Source: a virus. Taken from it: DNA of 64,000 bases. Positions 4,822 to 61,999 of the stretch are shown here, one piece after another. Below the pieces are notes generated by a model. That model did not search any database. It saw only the letters and a program-made list of their open reading frames with translations, and was not told the origin of the DNA. The stretch is from IMG/VR virus record IMGVR_UViG_3300025132_000021, positions 62,001 through 126,000 of that record. One strand, written 5' to 3'. Each line of letters opens with the position of its first letter. The stretch's first letter is position 1. Position numbers and translations under genes: made by a program.

Positions 4822-5229
4822 ATGACAATGGATAATGGATTTAACGAACCCCTAATTGAAGACCCTAACTCTACGGTCGCAGACTATCCTTGGGATGGAG
4901 ACCACGGGGCAACTCGTTCATACCACACCAGTTCAATGGCTGTTATGACAAACCCAATGCCCTCTATGGTCGCACCAGCAAAGGACGCTGTTAGCGAAGA
5001 GTTTGAAGGATTAAAAGAAGAAGTTTCAGAGTCATCACCAGAAGGTGCTGACATGGGACAGACTGGCGACGCTGGTGGCGACGCAGACGGACAAAACTTT
5101 GGACAAGACCAAGGTTCACAAGATACAAAGGCTGCTGAAGGCATCAATGTGCCTATTGTTGGCTCTGTTTCTTTGATGACTATTGGTATTCTTGGCGTAG
5201 TTGGCTTCTTACTTTACAGGAGAAAGTAG
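4822..5229 (+). CDS. Acidic tail-anchored membrane protein
   Basis: 135 residues: a Pro/Ser/Asp-rich, strongly acidic, Gly/Gln-rich soluble part (1-108), then one C-terminal membrane helix (about 110-131) and the basic end YRRK. This is a classical tail-anchor topology with the acidic domain on one side. Likely a virion membrane protein; no family recognised. A second in-frame Met lies two codons in. Confidence 0.8.
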   Translation: MTMDNGFNEPLIEDPNSTVADYPWDGDHGATRSYHTSSMAVMTNPMPSMVAPAKDAVSEEFEGLKEEVSESSPEGADMGQTGDAGGDADGQNFGQDQGSQDTKAAEGINVPIVGSVSLMTIGILGVVGFLLYRRK

Positions 5230-5235
5230 GGCAAT

Positions 5236-5245
5236 CTTTAAGTAG
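5236..5245 (+). promoter_or_regulatory. TATA-type promoter
   Basis: ATCTTTAAGTAGT element, first T 30 nt before the ATG at 5267. Confidence 0.8.
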
Positions 5246-5266
5246 TAAAAGGAATAAGGTGATTAT

Positions 5267-6124
5267 ATGGCACGAGTAATTGGAAATGCAGTTCTACCAG
5301 ATTTGCCCTATTCCCCAAATCTAAACCCACTACCTTCAGTTAATATCACCCGTGATACACTGGCAGGATACAATGCAAAAATTGAAATGGGTCAAGGATT
5401 AAGTGCCAAGACCCCACGACCAGCACCCACACTAAGTAAAATGCCTGTAATCGGAGTTCCCGAATCAGCACCATTGTCAATGGAAGCACAGGCTATGGGT
5501 GCAGGATATGGACAAGGTATTGTTCCAATGACCCCTCGCCCAGCACCTACACAAATTAACATTCCTCGTGTAGATGTTCCTCTTGGTAGTATGGCTCAAG
5601 ATTACGCTTTGCAGAATTATGATTTGATGGGTCAAGGTATTACGCCTTCCGCACAATATCTACGCCCAACTCACACTATGGAAGTTTATGCACCAGCCGC
5701 AGCACCTAATGTTGCAGGTCTTGAGCGCATGAAGGCTGAAACCATGATGGGTCGTGTCAATGCACACCAACCAGCCATGAACTTCGGTGGAGACCCAAGA
5801 TTTGAAGCAGAGATGACTTCAATTCGTCCAACTAACCCTCGTCTACTTGCTCGTGCGCCAACAGTCAATGTTAAGCAATCCGAGCAAAGAATCCCAATTC
5901 GTGAGTTGCCTCTTGTGCCAGCCAGCACACAACCACGAGTTCCAAATGTCGGCAAACTTGTAGGCCCAGTTAAGGCTATCAAGATGGAAGCCGAGTATGT
6001 AGCCCCTCCTATCCGCAACTCTGACCTCGGTGGTATGTTAAACAGCACCAGTCGTGTTGGAGGATTTGGAAACAGTAGCGGTCGTAGTTTCGGTGCAGAA
6101 GCACCTTTGACAATGCGACTCTAA
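5267..6124 (+). CDS. Proline-rich repeat protein, probable virion component
   Basis: 285 residues, low-complexity Pro/Met/Ala/Gly. A unit with a GQG(L/I) lead-in recurs three times; the first two copies contain TPRPAPT (49-55 and 89-95), and a degenerate third lies near residue 125. There is no membrane segment. It contains RFEAEM and, eight residues from the C-terminus, FGAE, two instances of the F-x-A-E tetrad found across this genome's presumed structural proteins. Leaderless promoter upstream. Not recognised by family; an extended scaffold or linker protein is plausible. Confidence 0.8.
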   Translation: MARVIGNAVLPDLPYSPNLNPLPSVNITRDTLAGYNAKIEMGQGLSAKTPRPAPTLSKMPVIGVPESAPLSMEAQAMGAGYGQGIVPMTPRPAPTQINIPRVDVPLGSMAQDYALQNYDLMGQGITPSAQYLRPTHTMEVYAPAAAPNVAGLERMKAETMMGRVNAHQPAMNFGGDPRFEAEMTSIRPTNPRLLARAPTVNVKQSEQRIPIRELPLVPASTQPRVPNVGKLVGPVKAIKMEAEYVAPPIRNSDLGGMLNSTSRVGGFGNSSGRSFGAEAPLTMRL

Positions 6125-6129
6125 ACAAA

Positions 6130-6154
6130 ATAAAAAAACGGAGATGAACAAAAA
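6130..6154 (+). promoter_or_regulatory. A-rich leader with GGAGATGAAC ribosome-binding site
   Basis: An A-rich stretch followed by CGGAGATGAACAAAAA directly before the ATG at 6155. Almost the same leader (TGGAGATGAACAAA) precedes the minus-strand gene starting at 56675, suggesting a shared strong translation signal. Confidence 0.55.
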
Positions 6155-6373
6155 ATGGATACAAAAGTAATAATTGTAGGAACAAGTTTGTTGGTAGTCG
6201 GTGCTTTCGCAGCATTGGGTGGAACTTTAGAAGCGTTCACTGTGCCTCTCCCAATCGTCGGCATGAATGCCCTTCAAGTTGGAGGCGTTGTCGTTGCATT
6301 GGTAGGTGTAGGAACTCTTGTAGGTTTTGACCCACTTCGCTTGAAGCAAGCCGCAGCCTCAACAGCATTCTAA
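6155..6373 (+). CDS. Small two-helix membrane protein
   Basis: 72 residues, two hydrophobic helices (about 4-26 and 38-58) joined by a Pro-containing loop (PLPIVG) with Gly-rich packing faces. The same pattern occurs in the proteins at 17368 and 17638, so these appear to be diverged paralogues. A strong ribosome-binding site precedes it. Likely an abundant virion-membrane protein. Confidence 0.75.
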   Translation: MDTKVIIVGTSLLVVGAFAALGGTLEAFTVPLPIVGMNALQVGGVVVALVGVGTLVGFDPLRLKQAAASTAF

Positions 6374-6376
6374 GTG

Positions 6377-6394
6377 CCGCCTACGCTTAGGCGG
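6377..6394 (+). repeat. Intergenic hairpin
   Basis: CCGCCTA (6377-6383) pairs perfectly with TAGGCGG (6388-6394) around the loop CGCT, in the 31-base gap between two membrane-protein genes. It is followed at once by a GGTGAG ribosome-binding site. It may stabilise or process the upstream mRNA or tune translation of the next gene. Confidence 0.6.
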
Positions 6395-6404
6395 TGAGAT
6401 AGAA

Positions 6405-6755
6405 ATGGATTCCAAAACTTTAGCAGAAACACAACGCATTTGTGATGCAGGGCTTGGGGCATATTTGTCTCAAAAGCACTCAGACTTTAGGTTGAAAAAC
6501 TTTAGTCGTGGAATTGTTGCTGGTTCAGTTTTCTCTGTTATTACCTATGGACTTATGAGTTTTGTCTTTGATATGAAAACACAAGCCATGTCTTATGCTT
6601 TAATTCCATTTGGTGCAGGTCTTCTTGGTGGTTCTTACCGAGGATTGACTCAAGCCGAGTCTGAAGATACTTTACATACCACTGATTTTGATGAAGTTTG
6701 TGCCAGTTTAGAATCTGATGAAGATGAAGATGAAGCAGAAGAAGATTCTGAATGA
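6405..6755 (+). CDS. Membrane protein with acidic tail
   Basis: 116 residues: a basic N-terminal part, two hydrophobic segments (about 38-54 and 62-80) and an extremely acidic Asp/Glu C-terminal tail. No separate promoter is visible; it follows the 6155 gene after a hairpin and a GGTGAG site, so it is co-transcribed. Possible virion membrane protein; not recognised. Confidence 0.75.
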   Translation: MDSKTLAETQRICDAGLGAYLSQKHSDFRLKNFSRGIVAGSVFSVITYGLMSFVFDMKTQAMSYALIPFGAGLLGGSYRGLTQAESEDTLHTTDFDEVCASLESDEDEDEAEEDSE

Positions 6756-6763
6756 GCAGTAAT

Positions 6764-6773
6764 CTTTAAGTAG
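6764..6773 (+). promoter_or_regulatory. TATA-type promoter
   Basis: AATCTTTAAGTAGTCGT, first T 30 nt before the ATG at 6795; a canonical copy of the genome's promoter. Confidence 0.85.
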
Positions 6774-6794
6774 TCGTTCCATTTCATTTTAATT

Positions 6795-7082
6795 ATGGCA
6801 ACAGATATGTTCTCCGTTATTGTCCCTATGGTCGTTGGTGTTGGTCTTACTGCGGTGGTTGTTAAACTACTAATGAAGAAAACCGAAAAGAAATCAGAAC
6901 AGCAATCTGCTTTGATTACATCACCTACTGAAAATGAGATGCTCATGCGTAGTTTGCTTATGCGACCTACCGTTAATGCAGAACTTAATGCTAAGTATGG
7001 CTCTGCACCAAGTCCAGTTTCAGTTAGCACCATGACTGACCTGATTGTGGGAACTCCTTTACCCAGAGCCATCTATTCTTGA
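6795..7082 (+). CDS. N-terminally anchored small membrane protein
   Basis: 95 residues; one N-terminal helix (about 6-25), a Lys/Glu stretch (28-36), then a soluble Met/Leu/Pro-rich region. No family recognised. The next gene starts 10 bases downstream with a modest GAGGTTTT site, so the two form a short operon. Confidence 0.72.
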   Translation: MATDMFSVIVPMVVGVGLTAVVVKLLMKKTEKKSEQQSALITSPTENEMLMRSLLMRPTVNAELNAKYGSAPSPVSVSTMTDLIVGTPLPRAIYS

Positions 7083-7091
7083 GGTTTTATT

Positions 7092-7652
7092 ATGAGAACT
7101 ACCTACCTTAATAGTCAAAAATACGCCTTAATTGGCACACTTGCTGCTATTTGTGGTGGTGTTTTGATGGTAGATTATTTACAAAAACAAAAAGTTAATG
7201 AATCAGAAGATGAAAAAGATTCTGATTGTGGTTGCTCTCATAAGAAAAATGCAGAAGCCCGAATTACTCGTGGACAAGAGGTTTATCAGTCTGAAATGAA
7301 CCAAGATGTTTCTGGTTCTGCTGCTGATTTGAACAGACTTAATCCAGTAGAAGTTGGCGGTGCAGAAGATGTCTACGGTGCTGAAAGTTTTGACACACAA
7401 TATGTTAATATGAATCCAATGGATTATCAGACTCCAACGGCTTTTAGCAACTATTCAGGTTATGCTTCCCAACCTTTTTGGGACCAAGCCAATGATTACT
7501 TGCCAGAATATCGCTTTGCTATGCCATGGTCCAGCAGTTATCTACCAGTAGATGCTTACCGACCTCAAGATTACCAAGGCTACCCAGCAGGCCCACTTCC
7601 TTATGATATGAGAACTCGTAGTATGAATTATACTACTTATCAACGCTCTTGA
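7092..7652 (+). CDS. Membrane-anchored aromatic-rich protein with a YGAES motif
   Basis: 186 residues: one N-terminal helix (about 11-30), a charged CGCSHKK segment (48-54), then a Tyr/Pro/Asn/Gln-rich ectodomain. VYGAESFD near residue 97 is one of the best examples of the recurring aromatic-x-A-E tetrad, placed between the anchor and the Tyr-rich part, as expected for a processing site or hinge. Likely a virion protein with the Tyr-rich domain exposed. Confidence 0.75.
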   Translation: MRTTYLNSQKYALIGTLAAICGGVLMVDYLQKQKVNESEDEKDSDCGCSHKKNAEARITRGQEVYQSEMNQDVSGSAADLNRLNPVEVGGAEDVYGAESFDTQYVNMNPMDYQTPTAFSNYSGYASQPFWDQANDYLPEYRFAMPWSSSYLPVDAYRPQDYQGYPAGPLPYDMRTRSMNYTTYQRS

Positions 7653-7656
7653 GAAC

Positions 7657-7666
7657 TATTAAGTAG
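7657..7666 (+). promoter_or_regulatory. TATA-type promoter
   Basis: TATTAAGTAGT 29 nt before the ATG at 7687. Confidence 0.7.
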
Positions 7667-7686
7667 TATCTCTGACATTTAAGAGT

Positions 7687-8277
7687 ATGAAAACTCTTGA
7701 TGATGTGCAAGATGATAATTTTAATCCGAGGTATGCAGCCCCTAATTCTATGTTTGAATGGTTAAATGATAACTTACCTAATGGTTCTAAGATTTTAGAG
7801 TTCGGTTCAGGCACAGGAACAATTAAATTAACTAAAAGTTTTGAGGTCACTTCTATTGAAGATAATGAACAATGGTTGTATTTAGCCCCCGAAAGCACTT
7901 ACATTTATGCCCCATCAGTCAATGATTGGTATGATTGGCAAGCCTTAGAAATCTTACAAGATGAAACTTTTGAAGCAATTATTATTGACGGACCTGCTGG
8001 GATAAATAACCGAGTTCATTTGATAGATTGGATAAATGTTTATCCTAATGTTTTTAATCAAGCCAGATTTGTTGTCGTAGATGATGTCTTTTTACCAACT
8101 GGTGAAACGCCATTTGTTCAACTTTTCAAACAATTAGGGTGGGAATTACTACATCACAACCCAAGTGAGAAAGACGGTCATAATTGGAGTGTTTATGTTA
8201 AAATCCATGAATGTCCAGAATGCGGAGAAGAGTTTAATCGTTATAATGACATGATAGAATGTTGTGCTAATCTTTAA
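7687..8277 (+). CDS. SAM-dependent methyltransferase-like protein with C-terminal zinc motif
   Basis: 196 residues. A Rossmann-type SAM-binding motif I, LEFGSGTG (37-44), follows the first strand; an acidic end to strand 2 (SIED) and a later IIIDGP strand fit a class I methyltransferase. The C-terminal 30 residues contain CPECG and a later CC pair, probably a zinc knuckle. The substrate is unknown (nucleic acid, protein or glycan all possible). The stop TAA is embedded in the TATA element of the next gene. Confidence 0.65.
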   Translation: MKTLDDVQDDNFNPRYAAPNSMFEWLNDNLPNGSKILEFGSGTGTIKLTKSFEVTSIEDNEQWLYLAPESTYIYAPSVNDWYDWQALEILQDETFEAIIIDGPAGINNRVHLIDWINVYPNVFNQARFVVVDDVFLPTGETPFVQLFKQLGWELLHHNPSEKDGHNWSVYVKIHECPECGEEFNRYNDMIECCANL

Positions 8278-8281
8278 GTAG
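8272..8281 (+). promoter_or_regulatory. TATA-type promoter overlapping upstream stop codon
   Basis: AATCTTTAAGTAGTCGT, first T 30 nt before the ATG at 8303; the TAA of the upstream methyltransferase gene lies inside it. Confidence 0.85.
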
Positions 8282-8302
8282 TCGTAAGCCTCAACACATA
8301 CT

Positions 8303-8530
8303 ATGCGAAACTATCCAGCAGAGTTTTATGCGAAGGACAAAAAACCACTTCATCAAATTGGTTATAGTGTTTCTTTGGCTATGATGGCAGTAGGAGTTTT
8401 AGAAACTTTACATGGTGTCTATTATCAAGTGAAGCAAGGCGATGGAAACCTCATTCTTGGACCAGCCCTTTTTGTAGCAGGCGGTGGCACAGCCTACCTC
8501 TGGCTTAAAGAGGCTGGAGTTGTCTACTGA
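8303..8530 (+). CDS. Two-helix membrane protein
   Basis: 75 residues with two hydrophobic segments (about 21-41 and 50-68). Its TGA overlaps the ATG of the next gene (TGATG), so the two are translationally coupled. Not recognised. Confidence 0.72.
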   Translation: MRNYPAEFYAKDKKPLHQIGYSVSLAMMAVGVLETLHGVYYQVKQGDGNLILGPALFVAGGGTAYLWLKEAGVVY

Positions 8531-9069
8531 TGAGTGTTGAGTGTCCAATTTGTTTTCAAAAGTTTGACTCTTTCCGAGGGCTAAATGGACACATGAACCG
8601 CCATAGACCTAAACGCTTGCGTGCTGAATCATCTAATATGGATTGTCCTATTTGCGGTGAAACTTGTAGTCAAGTTTCCAATACTGATTATGAATGTTCC
8701 ACTTGTGAAACTTTGTGGACTAAAATGCAAGGCGATGGATTTACCTATTTAGAGGCCGAAGAAGAAGATATTCTCGTTCCTTTTTTTGAAGGACAAGTCA
8801 TTATGCTGGATTGTCCCTTATGTAGTTATAGAACACCTCTTATTCAAGTAGGCTCAGGATTTTGCGAGGATTGTGGAGAGATGGTAAGTGCTTTTGAATT
8901 AAAACATTATTGTTTAGAGAATCACCCAGAATCAGTGCGAGACATTATTGAAGATGACATAGATGCTTATAATGAAGCAGAGTTTTGGCTACTTGAGAGT
9001 CATGCAGATTTTTGCCCAGCCATTCAATCAGGAGCCTTCACAGTAGAGGACATAGAAGATAACCTTTAA
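8530..9069 (+). CDS. C2H2 and CxxC zinc-finger protein
   Basis: 179 residues. The N-terminus is a classical C2H2 finger (C5, C8, H21, H25) followed by the basic stretch RPKRLR. Two further CxxC pairs (CPICG, CSTC) make a zinc ribbon, and another set (CPLC and CEDC) follows. The C-terminal half is acidic and helical. It is probably a nucleic-acid-binding regulator or a protein adaptor; C2H2 fingers are common in archaeal virus proteins. The stop lies within the next promoter. Confidence 0.8.
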   Translation: MSVECPICFQKFDSFRGLNGHMNRHRPKRLRAESSNMDCPICGETCSQVSNTDYECSTCETLWTKMQGDGFTYLEAEEEDILVPFFEGQVIMLDCPLCSYRTPLIQVGSGFCEDCGEMVSAFELKHYCLENHPESVRDIIEDDIDAYNEAEFWLLESHADFCPAIQSGAFTVEDIEDNL

Positions 9070-9073
9070 GTAG
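9064..9073 (+). promoter_or_regulatory. TATA-type promoter overlapping upstream stop codon
   Basis: ACCTTTAAGTAGTCGT, first T 30 nt before the ATG at 9095. Confidence 0.85.
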
Positions 9074-9094
9074 TCGTATCGTGAAGGGTTTTTT

Positions 9095-9538
9095 ATGGCA
9101 CTAATGACCAACGGTTATGTTCGTAAAGATTCTAATTCTAAAATGGGATTCTTACCACCAACTTCAACAGAGGCTTTAATGATGGGAGATGGTTCATTGA
9201 TGGATACTGCTGCTTTCCGTGATGGACACCCAACTACTAAATACACTCCTGCTGAACTCGGCATGGATGTTACGGCTTCACCTTTTTACGACCCTGAGAA
9301 AACTCAAGCAGCCAAAGCCGAGCCACAGCCGAGCGAAGGCGAGACAGTGGCACAGGATAGCCAAACGGCTGCCGACTCGGAGTTCGGTGCAGATACTCTT
9401 AATCCATTAGGAGTTTCTATGCCAGATGCACTCCAAAACTTTAATTCGTGGGCATCTCTAAATGTAGGCAAAATAATTCTGGGCGCAGGAGTTCTATATT
9501 TAGCCTATCGTTTGGGGGCTAACACTAATGCTTCGTGA
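9095..9538 (+). CDS. Tail-anchored protein with FGAD motif
   Basis: 147 residues; a polar, Thr/Ala/Glu-rich soluble part and one C-terminal helix (about 124-141). SEFGADTL near residue 92 is an F-x-A-D variant of the recurring tetrad, located between the soluble part and the anchor. It overlaps the next gene by 11 bases. Confidence 0.75.
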   Translation: MALMTNGYVRKDSNSKMGFLPPTSTEALMMGDGSLMDTAAFRDGHPTTKYTPAELGMDVTASPFYDPEKTQAAKAEPQPSEGETVAQDSQTAADSEFGADTLNPLGVSMPDALQNFNSWASLNVGKIILGAGVLYLAYRLGANTNAS

Positions 9539-10058
9539 GTGGCATCCCGGACAGCGTGTAACTTCAATTGCTGTTCAATCATTAGGAGTAGGAACAATTC
9601 TTGTTCCCTCAATTAGTCATGTAATCGTTGAGTGGGATGATGGTTCTTGGTCTAAAGAACGATACCAAGATATAATTTATGTTGGCGAGTCTAAACTTGA
9701 ACCCTTACCGATTCCCACCAAAGGTGGAAATCCGATACCCCGCCGAGGCTCTAATGATAGCACATTAGATGGTGCTAACAAACTTGACTTAGACCCACAA
9801 ATAGATTTTGATGATGACACTATTCCTAATCAGATGAATCCAGACAGACCCTCAAACCAAAATCCCTATTCTTCAGGTAGTCTGAATCCAGAGATATTTT
9901 CAGTTGAAAGTTTTGATGAGATTTCTTACGCACCCGACCGTGGACGATTTTCTAATCCAACCCTACTTAGACAACAAACTTTAGATTCGGCTTTAGAGCG
10001 TGCGATGACCAATTGGTTGCTACAAGGCGGAGGCGACCGAATGAGGAGGAAAATCTAA
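9528..10058 (+). CDS. SH3/KOW-like barrel protein
   Basis: 176 residues. The first 60 residues (HPGQRV, VIVEWDDGSW, ERYQDIIYV) read as a small SH3-like beta barrel of the type seen in KOW and agenet domains. The rest is Pro/Asn/Asp-rich and probably disordered. The last base of its TAA is the first base of the next ATG. A similar barrel-like stretch appears in the next gene, suggesting related functions. Confidence 0.65.
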   Translation: MLREWHPGQRVTSIAVQSLGVGTILVPSISHVIVEWDDGSWSKERYQDIIYVGESKLEPLPIPTKGGNPIPRRGSNDSTLDGANKLDLDPQIDFDDDTIPNQMNPDRPSNQNPYSSGSLNPEIFSVESFDEISYAPDRGRFSNPTLLRQQTLDSALERAMTNWLLQGGGDRMRRKI

Positions 10059-11248
10059 TGATGCCTACTTATTATCAATCTTTTGATACAGGAGAAACTA
10101 AAACTCTTGATGCTTGGTCTCAAGGCTATGTGCTTTACACCCAAGCCGATGGCAGCATGGTAGGTTATACTAAGTTTTCAAATGGGATTCCACCTATTAC
10201 TTTGCGCCCTGTTGATTCACCTCCCGGTTCTGCTTCAGGACCCAACTTCCCTCCATTTGGGATTCAAACATCTGCTTTGTTTCATGCCGAGTCTACTCAA
10301 TTTGATTTACTACGCCGAGAACTTCGCTCACAAGGTTTAGACCTGCAAGCCAGCAAGCGTATTCCTGAAAACTGGGTAATCTTACTTGAAGAAAGTTTGC
10401 CTATGGGTTTTTCTATGCAAGCCTTAGTTGCCCCAGAATACTATTCGGGTTATGATGCTGACCCATTCCAACAAGTAGTAGGAGGACAAGGTGAAGCAGG
10501 AATTAACCAACAAGGAATCGGAGTTATTCTTCGTGGCAACGGACAAATGGCTAAAGATATTTGGTTAGAGGGTTCTTCTTTAGAACGCCAAACTGAAAAC
10601 TTTGACAAAGCCGTTAAAGTAGCCAGTCAATTTCTTAATCCAGTTGTTTCTCATCAAAACATTGGTGCGATTGAAGGTCGTAGTCCTTTCAACACAGATG
10701 GACGACCTTGGAAACCGGGCGACCTTGTGAATGTTTCCAGAGATTCATTAGATGGAGGCGGTTTAGCCACAGCCCATGTAGTCCGAGTTTATACTACTGA
10801 TGTTTTAGTTGTTTGGCCTAATGATGCTGACCACCCAAAGTCTGAATATCCACGAGGTTGGTTCACTCAAGAAGATAAAGAAGATTTAATTTTCATTAAA
10901 GAAGACCCAGCATGGTTGGTCGCATGGAAAAAACTTCCCTTGGATTTATCCTCTCGTTATGGTGCAGAAACTCGTTATGAAAATGAGTTAGGATACAATA
11001 TGGATGGACGCTGGTTCACCCCAAGTAATCCACTACCTTTGTATGGAGGCACGGCAGAACGCCAACAAGAAGCCATGATGATGGGTTCTCCTCCACCATG
11101 GGCTACTATGATAGATATGCCAATAGGCTTATCACTTCGCACTACACCTAAGCATTCTTCTTCAGATATTTACACCGAGATGGATGAAATCAGTCTTCAT
11201 CTTCGTCGTCAAGAGGCTCTTGCTGAACTCACAGGACTTCGCTTATAA
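10058..11248 (+). CDS. Hypothetical protein with SH3-like segment and AE motifs
   Basis: 396 residues from the ATG at 10058, supported by GAGGAGG 8 bases upstream and the TAATG overlap; an upstream in-frame TTG at 10013 has no such support. A region near residues 220-285 (KPGDLV, VLVVWPND, EDLIFI) resembles the SH3-like barrel of the preceding gene. RYGAET (near 307) and FHAEST (near 81) match the recurring tetrad. No membrane helix. A structural virion protein is a reasonable guess. Confidence 0.78.
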   Translation: MMPTYYQSFDTGETKTLDAWSQGYVLYTQADGSMVGYTKFSNGIPPITLRPVDSPPGSASGPNFPPFGIQTSALFHAESTQFDLLRRELRSQGLDLQASKRIPENWVILLEESLPMGFSMQALVAPEYYSGYDADPFQQVVGGQGEAGINQQGIGVILRGNGQMAKDIWLEGSSLERQTENFDKAVKVASQFLNPVVSHQNIGAIEGRSPFNTDGRPWKPGDLVNVSRDSLDGGGLATAHVVRVYTTDVLVVWPNDADHPKSEYPRGWFTQEDKEDLIFIKEDPAWLVAWKKLPLDLSSRYGAETRYENELGYNMDGRWFTPSNPLPLYGGTAERQQEAMMMGSPPPWATMIDMPIGLSLRTTPKHSSSDIYTEMDEISLHLRRQEALAELTGLRL

Positions 11249-11256
11249 TAGCAAAT

Positions 11257-11266
11257 CTTTAAGTAT
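11257..11266 (+). promoter_or_regulatory. TATA-type promoter
   Basis: AATCTTTAAGTATCGG, first T exactly 30 nt before the ATG at 11288; this decides against the in-frame TTG at 11282. Confidence 0.8.
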
Positions 11267-11287
11267 CGGAATGGATACAGATTGAGT

Positions 11288-12160
11288 ATGCGTCTGACTC
11301 AAGTAGGATTAGGTGTCGCTCTACTGTCTGTTGTCGCTTACATTAGTAGCGATAAAGTAAAGGACATGGCTTCCAAAGTTTTTGGAGCCGATGCCATCAC
11401 ACCCGCCGAATTAGAAGAAATGCACATTGAATCAAGCGGAGTCACAGTAGACACCGTTCCTGTTTCCAATGTTCAAGCGTTCCTCGGTTGGGAACAATTG
11501 CACCTGCAACACACTACGGCTGTTGCTAATGACTCGCCATTTATGGATGGCGTAGTTGATGCTCAACCAGTTTATACCAATCCATTTGACATCGGATACA
11601 GTTTTGACCAAGAGTATTACGGTGCAGAAAGTTTTAACGCTGATGTTAATGGAGGATACTCTGGAAACTATGCAGGACAAGGTGCATCTTCTTTTGATGT
11701 AGCAAACCCACCTAATGAAGTTCCAACCGCAGGAACTCCATATCGTGTTCAAGCCCACACAGGTCAGGTTTATTCCACAGACCCCGCAACTGGTGTCAAT
11801 GGACAACCACTTCCCTATTCGGGTGCAACCCCTGTGGCACGGCTTCCACCCGAAGTCAATTCTGACTTCCCATACATGGTGAGTTTGGTTAATGCACCGT
11901 TTGTTACTGTTCCCACTTCTGAAACTGGTAGCAACCGTTTTGGTAGTTTGGCTCGCAACTCTGTTGATGATGCTATCAACGGTCGTTTTGGAGAAACAGC
12001 ATTGGCTCCTGAAGTTGATGCTTCTTACATGAGTCCAGATGGAACAACTATGCCTTTGAGTCAATGGCGTAGCAAATACACAGTCCTTCGTCATTCAGAC
12101 ACAATGGTTTCAGCCATTCCGTTTAGTGGTGGAGTAGAATTACAGTTAAGGAGAGTATAA
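11288..12160 (+). CDS. N-anchored virion-type protein with two AE/AD motifs
   Basis: 290 residues, start set by the promoter spacing. One N-terminal helix (about 4-20), then VFGADAIT immediately after the anchor and YYGAESFN near residue 116, the two clearest copies of the recurring tetrad in one protein. Between and after them the chain is Pro/Ser/Thr/Asn-rich and beta-prone. Cleavage at the first motif would release the ectodomain from the membrane. Function inferred from context only. Confidence 0.78.
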   Translation: MRLTQVGLGVALLSVVAYISSDKVKDMASKVFGADAITPAELEEMHIESSGVTVDTVPVSNVQAFLGWEQLHLQHTTAVANDSPFMDGVVDAQPVYTNPFDIGYSFDQEYYGAESFNADVNGGYSGNYAGQGASSFDVANPPNEVPTAGTPYRVQAHTGQVYSTDPATGVNGQPLPYSGATPVARLPPEVNSDFPYMVSLVNAPFVTVPTSETGSNRFGSLARNSVDDAINGRFGETALAPEVDASYMSPDGTTMPLSQWRSKYTVLRHSDTMVSAIPFSGGVELQLRRV

Positions 12161-12162
12161 GA

Positions 12163-13833
12163 ATGAGTAAGAAAATGTTATATGTCCGTTCTAAGGATTA
12201 TTGGGGCTATGATGCTTCAGATTTTGATGCAACTATGAACTTTTACAAATATACTTGGGTTGTTCCTGAAGCCATGTATAACGACATGGACGATAGCAAC
12301 AAATCCCGTTTGTATCCTTGTGCTTTGTTTTATGTTCAAGGAGTTACTGATAATCATAATTTCTTAACTATCAGTGTAAATGTTGATGGCTCAAATGCTA
12401 CTGTTAAGGGTATGCAAGGCACAAAGCGTAGAACTCGTAAGTTTGAAGTTGGCGTTCCTTTTGCTTATACTGTTGGTAGTTTAACTATGAAAGAAGCACC
12501 AGCAGGTGCAACTTCAGTAGACTTTATTCAAGAAGAAGTTAAAGAAGGGCGAGCCACTACTGAAGGAAGTTTCATTATTGATGGTTTCCTAACTGAAGCC
12601 ACAGATATTGCTGAAGTTGTGGGACTAAGTTCTACTGCTGAAGCCGAAACCGTAATGGAGCCTGCTGATATGGCTTCACCTATGGAAGATGAACCAACTC
12701 CAAGTGGTTATGAACCCACATCTTATGAAGCCGAAATTGATGATTCAGTCGCAGTTTCCGATTTCTACCCTCAAGAATCTGCTCAAACCCACGATGTTGC
12801 TTCTGGACATGGTGTTCCAGTGGCTTACGGTTCTGGGTCTTCCCAGAATCTTGAACCTCCAGTTGTTGTAGATGATGAATACATGGCGGCTGAAGATTTT
12901 GAAGCAGAAGTTTCAGATTTCTACCCACAATCCTCTGCTGAAGTTGGCGATACTCAATCAGGACATGGAGTTCCAGTTGCTTATGGCTCTGGCTCATCAC
13001 AATATGTAGAGCCACCAGTTATGGTAGACGAAGAAATGGCTGCTGAATATGACGATTCCGTAGAAGTTTCTGATTTCTACCCGCAGGAATCTGCCCAAAC
13101 TCACGATGTTGCCTCTGGTCATGGCGTGCCAGTTGCTTACGGCTCTGGTTCATCTCAAAACCTTGAACCACCAGTTGTAGTAGATGAAGAAATGGCTGCT
13201 GAATACCAAAAAGGTCGTCGTGGTGCTGGTGGAAGATTCCGAAGCAAGCGTGCTATTCGCAACGAAGTGTTCGGAGAAACAGTTGCTAATCAAATGGCAG
13301 GTTATTGGAGAACAGGTGTCGTTGGCACAAACCCAGTCGTAGGTTCAGATGTTGCTCGTAGTAATCCTGACAAGCGATACAATTATTTTACTCAACCAGC
13401 AGTTCGTAATGAAAACACAGGAATGTATAACAAAGGACCTAACTTCCGTCAAGCACACAAGATTGCTAAGGGAGTTGCATGGGACAGAGTAGAACGCCTT
13501 GGACTCGCTGCTGAAGCAGAAGTTCTTATGGCTGAATCCAAGTTTGAAACTTTGGCTTCTAAGATTGCCAAGCAATACGAGAAGAAAGGTATGGAACCGG
13601 GCAAGGCTATGGATATTGGCCGACGCACCGCTTACAAAGTTGGAGTTTCTAAGTATGGTAAATCAGGTATGACTCGCAAATCAATTGCAGGTCGCAAGGC
13701 TGCTGAATCTTACTCCGCAGACCGATTCGTAGATTCACTTAATGAAGCCGCCCCAGCACGCCTACCTATTAAGGGCATGGCTGCTGCTATTGTTGGCACA
13801 CTTCTTGGTGTCGGCTACGCTATGAAGAAGTGA
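12163..13833 (+). CDS. Repeat-containing tail-anchored protein with a phage-type basic domain
   Basis: 556 residues. The N-terminal 130 residues are beta-rich. Three tandem 52-residue repeats follow (about 198-350), each opening VSDFYPQ and carrying GHGVPVAYGSGSSQ and an acidic end ending AAE or EAE. Then a basic stretch (KGRRGAGGRFRSKRA) and a helical segment (about 463-520: FETLASKIAKQY, KYGKSGM) of a type widely seen in phage and giant-virus structural proteins. A C-terminal helix ends GYAMKK. Ribosome-binding site AGGAGAGT. Probably a multi-domain virion membrane protein. Confidence 0.78.
   Translation: MSKKMLYVRSKDYWGYDASDFDATMNFYKYTWVVPEAMYNDMDDSNKSRLYPCALFYVQGVTDNHNFLTISVNVDGSNATVKGMQGTKRRTRKFEVGVPFAYTVGSLTMKEAPAGATSVDFIQEEVKEGRATTEGSFIIDGFLTEATDIAEVVGLSSTAEAETVMEPADMASPMEDEPTPSGYEPTSYEAEIDDSVAVSDFYPQESAQTHDVASGHGVPVAYGSGSSQNLEPPVVVDDEYMAAEDFEAEVSDFYPQSSAEVGDTQSGHGVPVAYGSGSSQYVEPPVMVDEEMAAEYDDSVEVSDFYPQESAQTHDVASGHGVPVAYGSGSSQNLEPPVVVDEEMAAEYQKGRRGAGGRFRSKRAIRNEVFGETVANQMAGYWRTGVVGTNPVVGSDVARSNPDKRYNYFTQPAVRNENTGMYNKGPNFRQAHKIAKGVAWDRVERLGLAAEAEVLMAESKFETLASKIAKQYEKKGMEPGKAMDIGRRTAYKVGVSKYGKSGMTRKSIAGRKAAESYSADRFVDSLNEAAPARLPIKGMAAAIVGTLLGVGYAMKK
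12754..13221 (+). repeat. Three tandem 156-bp coding repeats
   Basis: Units start at 12754, 12910 and 13066. Each encodes VSDFYPQ, SGHGVPVAYGSGSSQ and an acidic tail. Units 1 and 3 are nearly identical in protein, whereas the DNA differs at many third positions, suggesting selection on the protein or an old duplication with gene conversion. Confidence 0.85.
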
Positions 13834-13837
13834 TTTC

Positions 13838-14125
13838 ATGTATGGAGTTAATTCGTGGGATACCTACGGAACTCGTTTGGCCTTTAATGCTGATGAAGAA
13901 TCCGAAGATACTGAAGATTCTCAAGAAGATGTTGAAGAAACGACCCAATCTAAACCTTTGGCCGCCACTAAATCAAGTAATGTGTTAGGTTATGCAGTTC
14001 TGGGTGGAATTGGAGTCATGGCTTTTGGTTATCTTTACTTTATGATTAGTAATCCTCAAGCCTATGTTCAAGCCACGGCTATTCGCACAGGCGGAAACCT
14101 CTTGGGTCAAGCCTTAAGTTCATAA
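13838..14125 (+). CDS. Acidic single-pass membrane protein
   Basis: 95 residues: FNADEE tetrad (near 17-22) opening a highly acidic stretch, then one helix (about 49-69) and a C-terminal amphipathic end. It begins 4 bases after the preceding stop without its own promoter, so it is co-transcribed. Confidence 0.72.
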   Translation: MYGVNSWDTYGTRLAFNADEESEDTEDSQEDVEETTQSKPLAATKSSNVLGYAVLGGIGVMAFGYLYFMISNPQAYVQATAIRTGGNLLGQALSS

Positions 14126-14139
14126 GAGTAGTTTTACTT

Positions 14140-14502
14140 ATGAGTTCTATGGACGAGTTTAATTGGGGCATTTATGGTTATCCTGTTTCTGACGAAGATG
14201 AGTCAGAATCTTTAACTGAAATCACAGCCCTTGCTTGGACAGGAGATTATTCCAACTTAGATATTCAAGAATACCACTTTGTTGTAGGCCAACCCGACCC
14301 TCGTTGTAGCCAACATCAGGTCATGGCTATCCGCCGAGTTTCCTATCCTGATGCAGACCCAGAAATCCAAATACTTTTACAAGGCGAATGCACGGCTAAT
14401 TCATGGGAACAATTTAGAGTTTTAGCGTGGGAAACCTCTGCAATCGCAAAGGTGGCTTTTGAAAGCGAGATGTCTTGGGCAGGAACACCAAACTTTAAGT
14501 AG
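14140..14502 (+). CDS. Small soluble protein, unknown
   Basis: 120 residues, Trp-rich and acidic, beta-prone, without membrane segment or recognised motif. It starts 14 bases after the previous stop with a weak upstream site. Its final codons NFK-stop are the promoter of the next gene (AACTTTAAGTAG), so the C-terminal residues are constrained by the TATA element. Confidence 0.7.
   Translation: MSSMDEFNWGIYGYPVSDEDESESLTEITALAWTGDYSNLDIQEYHFVVGQPDPRCSQHQVMAIRRVSYPDADPEIQILLQGECTANSWEQFRVLAWETSAIAKVAFESEMSWAGTPNFK
14493..14502 (+). promoter_or_regulatory. TATA-type promoter encoding the upstream gene's last codons
   Basis: AACTTTAAGTAGTCGT; first T 30 nt before the ATG at 14524, and the TAG inside it is the stop codon of the gene at 14140. 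Confidence 0.85.
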
Positions 14503-14523
14503 TCGTTCAACTCAACTCTGATT

Positions 14524-15456
14524 ATGTCAGACGAAGGTATCTCTCCATTTTTAGCAGAGATTGAATCCGAGATTACTACGGAAGCAGCAGGTAATCCAAA
14601 CAATGCTGTCGCTTTTGATATGGAATCTCAAAAAAACTCCGTAGTCGGTGCAGTAGAAATTACTGATAGCGATTACTCCAAATATCTTAGTTCATCTCAA
14701 CGCTCATCTTTGCCTAAGCATTTACAAGAAGGAATTATTCGTAAAAAGAAAACTGCTGAAGCCGAAGAAGAAGCGATGCCCAGTTTTGAATCTCTTCGTG
14801 ATGAAACCAATGCTTCAGTTCCAGAGGCTCCGCAAGACCCTGCCGAACCTGAACCAGATATTAGCCACATGGGGGAAACTCCTGAACCCGGTATGTTTGA
14901 GCCAGACCTCGGTATTACCGAAGAAGGTGGTCCTGAAGAACCTCCCGCCGCCCCTTTGCCTCGTCCAGAACCCGTAGAAGTAAGTTTTGTAGCAGAACGC
15001 CTTAATAATCAAGAACAAGAACTTAAGATTGCCAGCATGACTCAAAAGCAATATGAGGATTGGTTGTTCCCTGATAACAAAGAAGAATCAGATTGGGCAT
15101 CAGGACAAGTGGCTTTGGCTCGTATCATGGCGAATCTCAAAGCAGCAGGCTATGATTCTGTCAGCCTAAGTTTAGATGATGAGTTATTCCCTGCTTATGT
15201 CCAAGTTGCTTCGGCACTTTGGAGTCGTCAAAACTTTTCAACACCAGTTCGTGAAGATGTTATTACTCAAATAGAAAACGCACCTGCGGCTCAATTGGTT
15301 TCCACTTTAGAAGCCACAGCCAGTGCAGTTCCCACAGAATTAGCGGCAGAACTTTTCAGAGTTCCTGTTGAAGAATCTACTAACTACATTCCTTATGTGG
15401 GTGTAGGATTGGCAACATTGTTTGCATTTATGAGTCCATTCTTCTGGAAGAGATAG
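14524..15456 (+). CDS. Acidic Pro-rich tail-anchored protein
   Basis: 310 residues. Central Pro/Glu-rich linker (about 90-155), a helical domain (about 160-280) and one C-terminal helix ending FFWKR. FDMES and TAEAEEE are weak matches to the genome-wide tetrad. Leaderless promoter. Likely a virion membrane protein; family not recognised. Confidence 0.76.
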   Translation: MSDEGISPFLAEIESEITTEAAGNPNNAVAFDMESQKNSVVGAVEITDSDYSKYLSSSQRSSLPKHLQEGIIRKKKTAEAEEEAMPSFESLRDETNASVPEAPQDPAEPEPDISHMGETPEPGMFEPDLGITEEGGPEEPPAAPLPRPEPVEVSFVAERLNNQEQELKIASMTQKQYEDWLFPDNKEESDWASGQVALARIMANLKAAGYDSVSLSLDDELFPAYVQVASALWSRQNFSTPVREDVITQIENAPAAQLVSTLEATASAVPTELAAELFRVPVEESTNYIPYVGVGLATLFAFMSPFFWKR

Positions 15457-15462
15457 GCAAAT

Positions 15463-15472
15463 CTTTAAGTAT
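15463..15472 (+). promoter_or_regulatory. TATA-type promoter
   Basis: AATCTTTAAGTATCAAGG, first T 30 nt before the ATG at 15494. Confidence 0.82.
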
Positions 15473-15493
15473 CAAGGACGGTGAGAATAATAC

Positions 15494-16297: not shown

Positions 16298-16301
16298 GTA
16301 G
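16292..16301 (+). promoter_or_regulatory. TATA-type promoter overlapping upstream stop codon
   Basis: GTCTTTAAGTAGTTG, first T 30 nt before the ATG at 16323 (an out-of-frame ATG at 16315 is not used). Confidence 0.82.
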
Positions 16302-16322
16302 TTGAACAGGAGAGTATGAAAT

Positions 16323-17345: not shown

Positions 17346-17367
17346 ATAAAATGAATGGTGATTAAAA

Positions 17368-17625: not shown

Positions 17626-17637
17626 GTGTGATTAAAG

Positions 17638-18311: not shown

Positions 18312-18385
18312 GGGGTCGTAGTTTAATTTGGAAGAACAACTCGTTTGCGACGAGTAGGCTGGGAGTTCAAATCTCCCCGACTCCA
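18312..18385 (+). tRNA. tRNA-Ala (anticodon UGC)
   Basis: Full cloverleaf: acceptor GGGGTCG/CGACTCC with the alanine identity pair G3:U70, D stem GTTT/GAAC with GG in the loop, anticodon stem ACTCG/CGAGT with loop TTTGCGA (anticodon TGC), five-base variable region, and T stem GGGAG/CTCCC with loop TTCAAAT. Discriminator A73; CCA is not encoded. No intron. It sits directly behind a tiny membrane-protein gene and is probably co-transcribed with it. Confidence 0.92.
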
Positions 18386-50960: not shown

Positions 50961-50971
50961 GATACTTAAAG
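50961..50971 (-). promoter_or_regulatory. TATA-type promoter for the PolX-PolD operon
   Basis: CTTTAAGTATC on the minus strand, first T at 50970, 31 nt before the ATG at 50939. It overlaps the 3' end of the upstream gene (stop at 50966). Confidence 0.8.
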
Positions 50972-52351
50972 ATATGGATAAGGAGTAGCACTCCAAACCT
51001 CTATGGTTTCCGCACCATATTCTCCAGACATCAATTCATAACCAACAAACTTCCAGATTTCAGCCCATGAGCCTCCGCAGGAATTACACCTTACTTCTTG
51101 TAAGCCGTTTTCTAAAGAACCCTCGTAGCCAATATCGTCTGCACCACACCAAGGACAGTGCATCAATTCTGCCATTTCCATGAAAGTTTCAGCATTCATA
51201 GCCTTGTCTATCTCCCAATCTCCATCATTATTCTCTTCATCAAGATAATTACGGGATACTCCAAGTTCATACACAGGTTCTTTATCCATGACACAAAGTT
51301 CATTTTCTTGCCAGAAAAAACTGATGTTATAGGCAATTGTAGAAGCCCAATCTACGGCTTCCCACGGAATCCAAGCAGTTAATACGATACGGTCAAAATC
51401 TTTTCCTTCTTCGCCTTTCATGTGGTCTATACCCTCATGTCCGAACAATGCCCCTGCGTAAAACTTACTCTGCCACAACCAAGAAGTAATCTTATCTCCA
51501 TAAACTCCATATTGGTCTTGCTTTCTATTTTCCCAATTGCCTAATGAATCTACATTAACTGGTGTGCCTACGGGAACATAAAGAACTCTCCATGCTTGCA
51601 TCATTATTCCATGGTCGTCATCAGAATACATCCAAGTTCCCTTTTCAAATCTTTCAAGCCAAATATCAAACATCCTCTCAAAGTATTCATCTTTAGTGGT
51701 ATCTTCGCCAAGTTCCGAACCATCAGGCAAGTCAAACCCTTCCTCATAAGCCCCCAATCCTCCTCCAGCCATATTATGTTCTGCCCAATGTTTAATATCT
51801 TCTTGAGCAGGTGAATACCAAATCCGTTTTATTTCATTTATGATATAATCTGTGCAAGCAAAGTTTTCTTCACTTGATTCTGCATCCAATCTACGGGTCT
51901 CATTGTTTTTGGGAAATAAACTGCTGCCCCAAAACTTTTTGCCAGTGCGCTTGGCCTTACGAACTACCATTGGAGTTCCTGTGCTATCACGAGGCACACG
52001 GTTTAGATAACCAGACTTGACTAAGTTCTCTAACTCATAAACACGGTTTAACAAATTGCGTCGCCAGTTTTCTACTCGGTGAACTCTGGTCGTTCCAGCA
52101 ACTTTCACTCCATCTACCCAGTATTGCACTCGGATAGCATCACGACCTTTCGCCCGACTGGTCTGCCCAGTCACGCTGGAATAAACTCGGATTTCGCCCT
52201 CACCCAAAGGACGGGTGAACACTCTTTCTTTGACAACTCGGATTGCCCCACTGGGATATTTACTGGACCGTTCTTCTATGGAAAGTTCCCTAAAACTCAA
52301 GGCTTCCATAAAATCTTGCATTTGAGCCACGCTAATATCAACATAACTCAT
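50966..52351 (-). CDS. Phage-type domain protein with degenerate topoisomerase-like zinc finger
   Basis: 461 residues. Residues 1-110 (PSGAIRVVKERVF, EIRVYSSVTGQTSRAKGRDA, RVHRVENWRRNL) match a domain common in phage and archaeal-element proteins that normally precedes a topoisomerase-type C4 zinc finger. Here the finger is still recognisable (GTPMVVRK ... KKFWGSSLFP, 125-153) but its four cysteines are replaced by R121, T124, S143 and N149. The C-terminal part has a separate CPWCG/CNSCGG pair and MNAET and YGAET tetrads. Leaderless promoter. It might act in DNA handling or be a virion protein. Confidence 0.76.
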   Translation of the reverse strand: MSYVDISVAQMQDFMEALSFRELSIEERSSKYPSGAIRVVKERVFTRPLGEGEIRVYSSVTGQTSRAKGRDAIRVQYWVDGVKVAGTTRVHRVENWRRNLLNRVYELENLVKSGYLNRVPRDSTGTPMVVRKAKRTGKKFWGSSLFPKNNETRRLDAESSEENFACTDYIINEIKRIWYSPAQEDIKHWAEHNMAGGGLGAYEEGFDLPDGSELGEDTTKDEYFERMFDIWLERFEKGTWMYSDDDHGIMMQAWRVLYVPVGTPVNVDSLGNWENRKQDQYGVYGDKITSWLWQSKFYAGALFGHEGIDHMKGEEGKDFDRIVLTAWIPWEAVDWASTIAYNISFFWQENELCVMDKEPVYELGVSRNYLDEENNDGDWEIDKAMNAETFMEMAELMHCPWCGADDIGYEGSLENGLQEVRCNSCGGSWAEIWKFVGYELMSGEYGAETIEVWSATPYPYL

Positions 52352-52523: not shown

Positions 52524-52682
52524 TTACTCGTTGAGGTCGGCCATGCGGTCGCTCAAAAGCAATAGTGCTGATGCCCAAAGTCCGACAAAGATACCAAGGT
52601 TCTCGTCGTGAGCAAAGTAAATAGCAATACTACCCAAGATTGATACAAGGCTTGCACCTAATCCCAACTTTTTCCAGTTCAT
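52524..52682 (-). CDS. 52-residue two-helix membrane protein
   Basis: Starts at the ATG that overlaps the TGA of the SAP-domain gene (ATGA), so it is translationally coupled. Two hydrophobic stretches (about 5-24 and 30-43) followed by SDRMADLNE. Too short for family assignment. With the SAP protein it forms a small membrane-linked cassette. Confidence 0.65.
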   Translation of the reverse strand: MNWKKLGLGASLVSILGSIAIYFAHDENLGIFVGLWASALLLLSDRMADLNE

Positions 52683-53101
52683 GCCAATGCCTCCTGAAGT
52701 CGTGCCAACAAGTCTGCCTTCTTACCAGTGATAGGAAGGTTAAGTTCTTTGAGTCGGTCTTTAAGTTGAGCGACAGTCAGAGCCTTGAGTTCTTCAATTT
52801 CTTCAGTAGCCGACTCAACAGCAGAGTCCACCGCAGCATCTACTACATCTTCAATGCTTTCTCCTGCTTCCAATGCTTCTTCTACATCGTCTACCACATC
52901 TTCTGCAACATCTTCTGCGGCAGAAGCAATAGTTTCAACGACACTATCAAGTTCTACATCAATGCCTGTGGCATCTTCAATAGCGTCTTCAATTTTGTCA
53001 GCAATTTGTTCAATCGTCTTTCCTCGGTTTTTGAGCCACCAGCCAGCGACAGCCGCCGTAGCGATGCCCAGACCAGTTAGCAATACGGTGTTTGGTTCCA
53101 T
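52679..53101 (-). CDS. Membrane-anchored SAP-domain protein
   Basis: 140 residues: one N-terminal helix (about 5-23), a long very acidic helical stalk of repeated (A/V)-(E/D)-rich units (about 28-105), and a C-terminal SAP motif (LTVAQLKDRLKELNLPITGK, about 108-127, then KADLLARL). SAP domains bind DNA or chromatin; this architecture could tether viral DNA to the membrane or virion interior. Promoter 30 nt upstream. Confidence 0.78.
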   Translation of the reverse strand: MEPNTVLLTGLGIATAAVAGWWLKNRGKTIEQIADKIEDAIEDATGIDVELDSVVETIASAAEDVAEDVVDDVEEALEAGESIEDVVDAAVDSAVESATEEIEELKALTVAQLKDRLKELNLPITGKKADLLARLQEALA

Positions 53102-60348: not shown

Positions 60349-60370
60349 CACTATACCGTATGCGTAGCAA

Positions 60371-60380
60371 CTATTTAATG
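60371..60380 (-). promoter_or_regulatory. TATA-type promoter, minus strand of a divergent pair
   Basis: CATTAAATAGTTG on the minus strand, 31 nt before the ATG at 60348; a plus-strand TCTTAAATAGTTG lies only 16 bases away, so the two promoters share a 76-base intergenic region. Confidence 0.65.
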
Positions 60381-60394
60381 TTTGTTATGGTTAA

Positions 60395-60404
60395 TCTTAA
60401 ATAG
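60395..60404 (+). promoter_or_regulatory. TATA-type promoter, plus strand of a divergent pair
   Basis: ATCTTAAATAGTTGAG, TATA-equivalent base 29 nt before the ATG at 60425. Confidence 0.68.
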
Positions 60405-60424
60405 TTGAGTCCTAAACAATAAAC

Positions 60425-61180
60425 ATGGTTGCCAATGTTGCCATTCAAATCTCTGCGTGGTGGGGTGAGATTGATGATGACTCCACAGCCTTTACTTCAT
60501 TTTCTGGTCAAAGAATTATGTTGGCTCAAAACTTTGATATTAAGAAATTGATGACTATGACTAATCAACAAGCCTTAAAACATTTTGTAGTTAATGTAGA
60601 TATGAGAGGGCCTCAACAGATTTATGCTGATAAAGAGGGTTATGCAAAAGCCATAGACGGAGTTCGTAATAAACCCATCAAAAGTCTTAGTTATAGTCCC
60701 AGTTCAATCACTGATGGAAATAATGATTGGCTCTGGATTGATTTATACCCAGTAGAGTTCTTGGCTCACGAGGACACCGAATCAGAGTTTGCGATGTTTA
60801 ACGAATCACTTGGGGATGATGAGAGCCTAAATTACTTTAACTTTTGCTATAATCTAAAAGAATGGCTCACTGCATGGAATAGACAACTCCAGTTCACAGA
60901 GGGTTCAAAAAAAATAATCTCCAAACTATCAGCAGGCCGTATGCCTCTTTTTGAAAGTTTTAAGACAATACCTGATTATGTAGGACCTCCGGGAATAAAT
61001 GTAGATGAAACTTACACAAATCTCATAGATAATCCTGAATATCAAAGATTAAAAGATTTTGGCATTTATTTGATGTCTTCCGAAGCAGCCACAGATTTTA
61101 GAAGGCTTCTGGGTAATTTAACTAATTCTATTCTAAATTGGACACAAACTTCGGTTGATGACCTGCTAAACTTTAAGTAG
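60425..61180 (+). CDS. Hypothetical soluble protein
   Basis: 251 residues, Asp/Asn/Tyr-rich, mixed fold, without membrane segment or recognised motif. N-terminal VANVAIQISAWWGEIDDD reads as a buried strand pair. Its final LLNFK-stop lies in the next promoter. Divergent from the low-complexity gene. Confidence 0.72.
   Translation: MVANVAIQISAWWGEIDDDSTAFTSFSGQRIMLAQNFDIKKLMTMTNQQALKHFVVNVDMRGPQQIYADKEGYAKAIDGVRNKPIKSLSYSPSSITDGNNDWLWIDLYPVEFLAHEDTESEFAMFNESLGDDESLNYFNFCYNLKEWLTAWNRQLQFTEGSKKIISKLSAGRMPLFESFKTIPDYVGPPGINVDETYTNLIDNPEYQRLKDFGIYLMSSEAATDFRRLLGNLTNSILNWTQTSVDDLLNFK
61171..61180 (+). promoter_or_regulatory. TATA-type promoter overlapping upstream stop codon
   Basis: AACTTTAAGTAGTCGT; first T 30 nt before the ATG at 61202, so that ATG, rather than the in-frame ATG at 61193, is the likely start. 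Confidence 0.82.
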
Positions 61181-61201
61181 TCGTGCGACAGCATGGTAAC
61201 T

Positions 61202-61999
61202 ATGGAACCTTGGCGTAAGCACTTTGAAATGTTTTCAGCAGATGCTCTGGAGGACATGAAAACTTATTCTGACAATACTCACGAAGAAAGGGAATGGATG
61301 TGTTATGTCTACGAAAAGGATGGTCGTTATGAACTTGGCTCGCCGTCGCTTGGCACAGAATCTCGTATTGAGGTTAATCCAGTCGCTAAGGCAGCGCAAG
61401 ATGCTGGCAAAGGTTTGACTAATCGTATGTGGACTATCCACGGACACCCTCTAAAAGATGGTAAGATTTACACAGGTCGCCAATACTTTTCCTCTACGGA
61501 TATTATCAATGAGTTCCTAAAAACTCGTGATACCAACGAACCCGTAGTTCAATGGATTACTTATCCTCATCAACAATTAGATACTAATACTGGTAAGAAA
61601 GTTATTCACAACCGATGCCGAACTTTAGTGTTTCCATCTCGTGATGTAGTTATCAAGGCCATGCAAGTTAGCAATCCAGATGTAGATGTTATGGCAATTA
61701 CCAGAGAATCTGGACAAAACCGCAACGCTGCCGATGGTAGTTTAGTAAATGATTCAGGTATTGATTGGTTCGCTTTCCAAGAAGCACTGGGAGATATGGG
61801 CTACATGGGCATTATGGATTTAGAAGGACCAGCCGCAGGAGCCAAGCCTTTCCGTAGTGAATCTATGTTTGTGAAAAAGTTTGGAATGCTTTCTGTGATT
61901 GCACTCGGAATTGCAGGATTCGCATACTTGAGCAAAACTCAAGGATTTGGTGCAGAAGTTGAAGTCGTTGATGGCTTAGGCGAATGGCACGAAATCTGA
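61202..61999 (+). CDS. JAMM/MPN-like metalloprotease candidate, tail-anchored
   Basis: 265 residues. IHGHP (79-83) followed by FSSTD (96-100) resembles the H-x-H-P ... S-x-x-D zinc-binding and catalytic set of JAMM/MPN+ proteases, with an upstream Glu (E31 or E38) as the possible general acid. The gap between His and Ser is longer than usual, and the S/T after the first His is Gly. JAMM enzymes cleave isopeptides or process proteins, and phage relatives act in tail assembly. A C-terminal helix (about 226-246) and FGAEVE tetrad follow. It is a candidate for the enzyme acting on the A-E motifs; that is speculation. Confidence 0.6.
   Translation: MEPWRKHFEMFSADALEDMKTYSDNTHEEREWMCYVYEKDGRYELGSPSLGTESRIEVNPVAKAAQDAGKGLTNRMWTIHGHPLKDGKIYTGRQYFSSTDIINEFLKTRDTNEPVVQWITYPHQQLDTNTGKKVIHNRCRTLVFPSRDVVIKAMQVSNPDVDVMAITRESGQNRNAADGSLVNDSGIDWFAFQEALGDMGYMGIMDLEGPAAGAKPFRSESMFVKKFGMLSVIALGIAGFAYLSKTQGFGAEVEVVDGLGEWHEI

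Follow-up and report, generated by a model that had tools for sequence, protein, structure and literature searches.

Among the systems that come closest to the one described here, the prohead protease gp21 of phage T4 cuts after Glu at [IL]-x-E, and adenain of adenovirus, a jelly-roll virus, recognizes sites with a hydrophobic P4, a small P2, and a Gly-type P1 residue and cuts many core and membrane-facing proteins. In SPN3US, a phage of Salmonella, proteins are cut after A-x-E by a prohead protease that favours Ser at P1′, makes several cuts per propeptide, and processes many internal head proteins (PMC10052503). Borg elements encode a JAMM-fold metalloprotease along with HCIV-1-like single jelly-roll capsid-like proteins, with their JAMM proteins, which are multicopy and cytoplasmic, being read as de-SAMPylases (PMC12660748). 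Here, we describe a short tetrad of the form [FYM]xA[ED], referred to as FxAE, which recurs in presumed virion proteins encoded in a 64,000-nucleotide window, namely positions 62001-126000 of the 160,342-base IMG/VR record IMGVR_UViG_3300025132_000021 (G000).

Like the T4 gp21 site, the tetrad places a large hydrophobic residue ahead of Glu, and in both cases the pattern is enriched in the (here presumed) substrates. Unlike it, the tetrad has an aromatic residue or Met at P4 and Ala at P2, no gp21-like protease was found, and nothing seen so far marks the virus as tailed. With the gp245/phiKZ-type protease of SPN3US there is a shared use of Ala and Glu, a favoured Ser in the next position, and several sites per protein, but the order is A-x-E there and x-A-E with F/M/Y at P4 here, and SPN3US is an HK97-type tailed phage. 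Hallmarks of the latter type (prohead protease homologue, terminase, or portal) are missing among the Pfam and PHROG matches listed, one of the Pfam lists covering 25 of 35 families. As for adenain, whose sites likewise pair a hydrophobic P4 with a small P2, Glu rather than a Gly-type residue would occupy P1, and no homologue of this enzyme came up in the Pfam scans. As with the Borgs, a putative JAMM-fold protein and single jelly-roll capsid-like proteins are found together in a presumably archaeal element, though here there is one conserved JAMM-like gene with a possible C-terminal transmembrane (TM) helix. Lastly, Haloarcula virus SH1 (Sphaerolipoviridae) offers a related-looking packaging ATPase and, as is probable here too, a jelly-roll capsid with an HCIV-1/SPV1-like fold, but its genome is 31 kb (160 kb here) and shows no excess of FxAE.

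Enrichment and consensus of the tetrad

Expected counts were derived from per-protein residue shuffles, which keep the composition. In the first virion-type block (4822-18177, plus strand), 18 proteins of at least 90 residues contain 27 [FYM]xA[ED] sites against 5.1 expected (z 9.7), and these include FEAE (5801-5812), YGAE (7374-7385, 11618-11629, and 17262-17273), FGAD (11381-11392), and MAAE (13036-13047). The second block (24792-34860, plus strand), with 11 proteins, has 21 sites against 5.6 (z 7.2), for example MNAE (27016-27027), FDAE (27289-27300), MDAE (29766-29777), YEAE (31044-31055), FNAE (32530-32541), and FEAE (34179-34190). Pooling both blocks gives 48 sites versus 10.6, carried by 19 of the 29 proteins, and the Glu-only form [FYM]xAE numbers 35 versus 5.9 (z about 12). 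Leaving out the internally repetitive protein at 12163 still gives 42 versus 9.5. A preliminary description of the window had proposed the motif from the sequence; each of the 21 instances it named is present, and the count in virion-type proteins exceeds what their Ala and Glu content would yield. Most of its gene starts are as given, save that three were off by a few codons and are corrected here to 11282, 26671, and 61193 (from 11288, 26695, and 61202).

No excess exists in the jelly-roll and fibre-like block at 35403-44600 (0 versus 1.6), the minus-strand replication cluster (7 versus 5.7), or the record's right arm (8 versus 7.8), and there is a mild one in its left arm (28 versus 17.5). 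The earlier statement that replication enzymes have fewer motifs holds for the cluster, with two minus-strand exceptions, these being the PolX fusion at 48231-50939 (five sites) and the unassigned protein at 50966-52351 (MNAE at 51188-51199 and YGAE at 51008-51019). The control patterns EAx[FYM], [FYM]Ax[ED], and [FYM]xV[ED] were flat against shuffles, and a small excess of [FYM]xxA[ED] and [LIV]xA[ED] was seen in the second block (z 2.3-2.4). Moreover, [FYM]xAE is in genome-wide excess in all four virus records (z 8.7-10.2) and again in two further related contigs (z 8.7 and 7.5), but not in E. coli (7 versus 5.9), T4 (13 versus 8.8), or SH1 (0 versus 3.9). As a positive control, T4 [IL]xE in gp21 and its substrates was counted at 46 versus 22, so a proven maturation site leaves the same kind of footprint. 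Codon choice at the motif sites is background-like, which places the selection on the protein and not the DNA and rules out a DNA-level repeat as the origin. The motif is real and selected.

As to its individual positions, across the four records [FYM]xA followed by D, Q, or K/R, as well as [FYM]xGE and [IV]xAE, all gave z of 2.5 or less, and [FYM]xSE reached z 4.2 in record G001 only. Leu is a weak fourth residue in the first position, where Ile and Val are not enriched. The Glu/Asp alternative of the preliminary description needs narrowing to a strong preference for Glu, with the Asp form clearly enriched only in the virion blocks of the window (13 versus 4.8). We then compared Ala-Glu (AE) dipeptides with [FYM] at the first position against AE dipeptides without it, a test whose rows come from related viruses and whose p-values are nominal. 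Gly occupies the second position in 21.7% of [FYM]xAE and 5.4% of other AE, and Pro in none of 355 as opposed to 77 of 1237, while Val and Ile are scarce there and Ser or Thr after Glu is more common with the upstream [FYM]. Phe two residues past Glu is also enriched, partly via overlapping copies such as AETFxAE, and this occurs at AE without an upstream aromatic residue as well. The sharpened consensus is F/M/Y, a Gly-rich and never-Pro second position, Ala, Glu (weakly Asp), and then a favoured Ser or Thr.

In addition, proteins without other resemblance to one another, some of them from relatives, share the module (V/I)PDSYGTNSALDSGQGVPVWYGSAE of about 26 residues (window 24792-26690 and 28734-30245; L003:1271-2203; L056:13559-15547), and a shorter form of it, GHGV..(W/Y)(F/Y)GAE, is also present.

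Linkers and domain edges

The sites were proposed to lie between a membrane anchor and a soluble domain or between domains, and this is borne out in part. Motif density is about 1.4-2.6 times greater in TM-containing proteins. Eight multi-domain proteins that match Pfam contain 28 sites, none of which is inside a Pfam domain, where 5.0 would be expected. Of the 28 edges of their domains, 11 lie near a site, as against 3.3 under random placement (0/5000). Ten further proteins contributed two WGR domains, with a nearby site at one of four edges. Motif flanks are less conserved (identity 0.31 versus 0.40-0.42 for control tetrad flanks) and more gapped (0.20 versus 0.10-0.12).

Some domains are bracketed by sites on both sides. 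The PolX domain (residues 187-344; Pfam palm and thumb) of the multi-domain protein at 48231-50939 has FGAE at residue 177 (50400-50411) and MRAE at residue 343 (49902-49913), the other sites of this fusion being at 50796-50807, 49884-49895, and 48528-48539. Similarly, in the relative G004 the LigD phosphoesterase domain (640-739) is set between FGAE (627) and MEAE (756), and other fusions include superoxide dismutase, GNAT, and DUF5872 domains. Such domain-bracketing fusions suggest that enzymes are packaged as polyproteins. The large fusions (L022:11891-14662, L053:17544-20000, and L001:5800-8514) mix superoxide dismutase, PolX thumb, LigD phosphoesterase, GNAT, and DUF5872 domains, and these sets differ among relatives.

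A putative maturation site, its candidate enzyme and the rival explanations

We regard processing by a viral protease as the best-supported mechanism, with the chances of its being correct about evenly poised. According to this, [F/M/Y]-[G, E, D, N; not P]-A-E-[S/T...] would be the sequence that a maturation protease encoded by the virus recognizes, a proposal for which we see as much room for doubt as for belief. The enzyme would act during assembly, its cut falling behind Glu or else at the Ala-Glu bond. In both membrane-anchored virion proteins and multi-domain fusions, the flexible linkers would be cut, and the domains released in this way inside the particle would include repair and redox enzymes. 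A cut between Ala and Glu, as first suggested, is not favoured over one after Glu; rather, the latter seems preferable because the strict preference for Glu resembles that of the T4 and SPN3US proteases. With chance excluded, the subsite pattern, linker location, and bracketing of domains fit the processing half of the original proteolytic-or-sorting proposal, with sites comparable in principle to those of T4/phiKZ-type proheads.

Several points weigh against such processing. Cleavage, the scissile bond, and the enzyme are all inferred. The matches listed include no known maturation-protease family (Pfam, NCBIfam, and PHROGs for the window; Pfam for the rest of the record). Key maturation sites are usually kept between relatives, but here site positions turn over while the overall density holds; for example, the GGDPRFEAE site of the protein at 5267 is retained by four viruses and has a degenerate form in two others, and the FGAD past the N-terminal hydrophobic stretch of the protein at 11282 is retained in three of six. 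Turnover at constant density agrees with numerous sites that partly stand in for one another, be they cleaved or bound. Moreover, the jelly-roll capsid proteins themselves have no sites. Module edges defined by masked BLAST are enriched for the motif, but nearly as much so near AE without the aromatic residue, and therefore this signal says only that linkers are AE-rich and is not specific evidence.

In the search for an enzyme, a classical prohead protease, adenain, or other known protease was not found among the Pfam, NCBIfam, and PHROG matches listed, and a scan of shared proteins for conserved His/Cys/Ser patterns made only JAMM-like and HExxH proteins stand out. With low confidence, we put forward the JAMM/MPN+-like metalloprotease candidate at 61193-61999 (plus strand; HGHP...SSTD) as the best of these. 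It has 54-69% identity in four viruses with an invariant Glu and HxHP...SxxD, and a possible C-terminal TM helix. Two sites occur in the protein itself, FGAE (61946-61957) adjoining the predicted helix and FSAD (61232-61243) near the N terminus. A Foldseek search with its model gave modest similarity to Rpn8/Rpn11, BRCC36, and COPS5 (E 4e-3), and it is also similar to phage JAB/MPN/RadC proteins. However, there is no Pfam JAB match, searching PDB sequences with its JAMM profile gave nothing useful, and the P-to-S spacing is longer than in canonical members. This protein may instead be a de-SAMPylase, as proposed for the Borg proteins, with a role unrelated to the FxAE sites, which would count against the proposed processing. 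A less likely second candidate is the HExxH protein from a group with MoxR-like AAA and VWA-like proteins that starts left of the window (L003:15227-19204, L003:19238-19999, and the VWA-like protein at window 1463-2689, plus strand). The group is absent from the corresponding place in record G003, where the neighbouring genes are still in order, and the motif excess there is equally strong, which argues against the HExxH protein and weakens the group as a source of the protease.

The main rival, a serious possibility though short of a probable one, is that FxAE is a docking or sorting motif by which a capsid, membrane, or scaffold pocket recruits unrelated proteins without cleavage. Several copies per protein, placement in linkers, and positions that turn over while density is kept are all typical of short linear motifs, and cargo as diverse as PolX, superoxide dismutase, and LigD phosphoesterase has the motif in common; on the other hand, the exclusion of Pro, the strictness for Glu over Asp, and the Ser/Thr that follows look like protease subsites, and domains are bracketed on both sides. 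Far less credit is due to the notion that the motif does nothing by itself and is carried along as repeat modules like the SALDSGQGVPVWYGSAE unit are copied, even though modules of this sort are present in several proteins and the protein at 12163 has MAAE three times. This rival is largely refuted by the ten-residue site contexts, 266 of 267 of which are distinct across four viruses, while the excess persists without 12163 and codons at the sites vary as in the background.

Least of all, and to a degree that we consider negligible, might the tetrads arise by chance from the content of Ala, Glu, and aromatic residues or from a general bias toward amphipathic helices. This idea can draw on LxAE and AExF, which are in excess to a smaller degree, and on linkers rich in Ala and Glu, but in the virion blocks the shuffles put the motif at z about 12 with composition preserved, and together with E. 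coli, T4, and SH1, none of which has an excess, they rule out a composition artefact; the favoured Gly within the motif opposes a helix. Returning to processing, its most detailed version is that a new protease, possibly a membrane-anchored JAMM, matures a large marine archaeal single jelly-roll virus at FxAE and that PolX, LigD phosphoesterase, and superoxide dismutase are loaded as fusion polyproteins to be freed by cutting, which as a whole we consider unlikely.

Were cleavage confirmed, archaeal single jelly-roll viruses, for which we know of no such report, would join those that mature by proteolysis, and FxAE sites could give the ends of mature proteins and reveal more packaged proteins in uncultured relatives. 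The statistic used here, a tetrad enriched in virion-type proteins and absent from replication proteins, is a simple finder of processing or docking motifs in the genomes of uncultured viruses.

The virus, its relatives and neighbouring genes

The record encodes the large subunit of PolD, MCM-like and PolX-like proteins, TFB, TBP, ArsA, an XPD-like helicase, a 5′-3′ nuclease, an ERCC4 nuclease, a small primase, and a class II ribonucleotide reductase, a gene set that points to an archaeal virus. Close relatives were found in three IMG/VR records (G001-G003) and in contigs that had been binned in three metagenome-assembled genomes (MAGs), whose isolate names SAT45, RS826, and NAT686 suggest Tara Oceans marine samples. 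These contigs (PALK01000017.1, PBOB01000001.1, and NZVE01000013.1) belong to MAGs labelled as bacterial (Rickettsiales, Acidiferrobacteraceae, and Rhodobacteraceae), which is probably mis-binning. A literature search found nothing on this virus group, and DP2 of the virus gave no match to the phage records.

The virion module is marked by a HerA/FtsK-type packaging ATPase with a C-terminal TM helix (2730-3914, plus strand), whose sole match in the phage collection is the putative ATPase of SH1 (weak; 25.6%, E 6e-3) and whose Pfam match to DUF87 is below the cut-off. By alignment, model, and Foldseek, two paralogous single jelly-roll-like capsid proteins (19460-20849, plus strand; starts 19460 and 20094) were recognized, with two more paralogs at 36320-37794 (plus strand; starts 36320 and 37024), none of which has the motif. 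Confidence in this fold is modest, as the model has a pLDDT (predicted local distance difference test) of 68 and the best Foldseek match is SPV1 (probability 0.99, E 1.8e-3), with HCIV-1 also among the matches. Genes between and around the ATPase and these paralogs are presumed to form the virion module, the virion status of their products being judged from neighbourhood and TM content. Overall, this is probably a large, marine, archaeal jelly-roll virus with an internal membrane.

A tRNA-Ala (TGC) gene is found at 18312-18385 of the window, within a virion-type block. A 951-residue protein (L003:3093-5948; G000 43093-45948) has in common with the small jelly-roll capsid proteins their C-terminal segment DGPxxLIA...WYK, as if the same anchor were used by a spike or large capsid protein. 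The virus is rich in single-TM proteins, several of which have the TM at the C terminus. An ArsA/Get3-type ATPase (L003:6473-7618; G000 46473-47618; Pfam ArsA_ATPase 3.5e-61), kept in four relatives, is perhaps a virus-encoded tail-anchor insertion factor. The Pfam scan lists a SAP match (2e-13) for one window protein, and a small protein at 52679-53101 (minus strand), with an N-terminal hydrophobic helix and an apparent C-terminal SAP domain, perhaps tethers DNA to the membrane.

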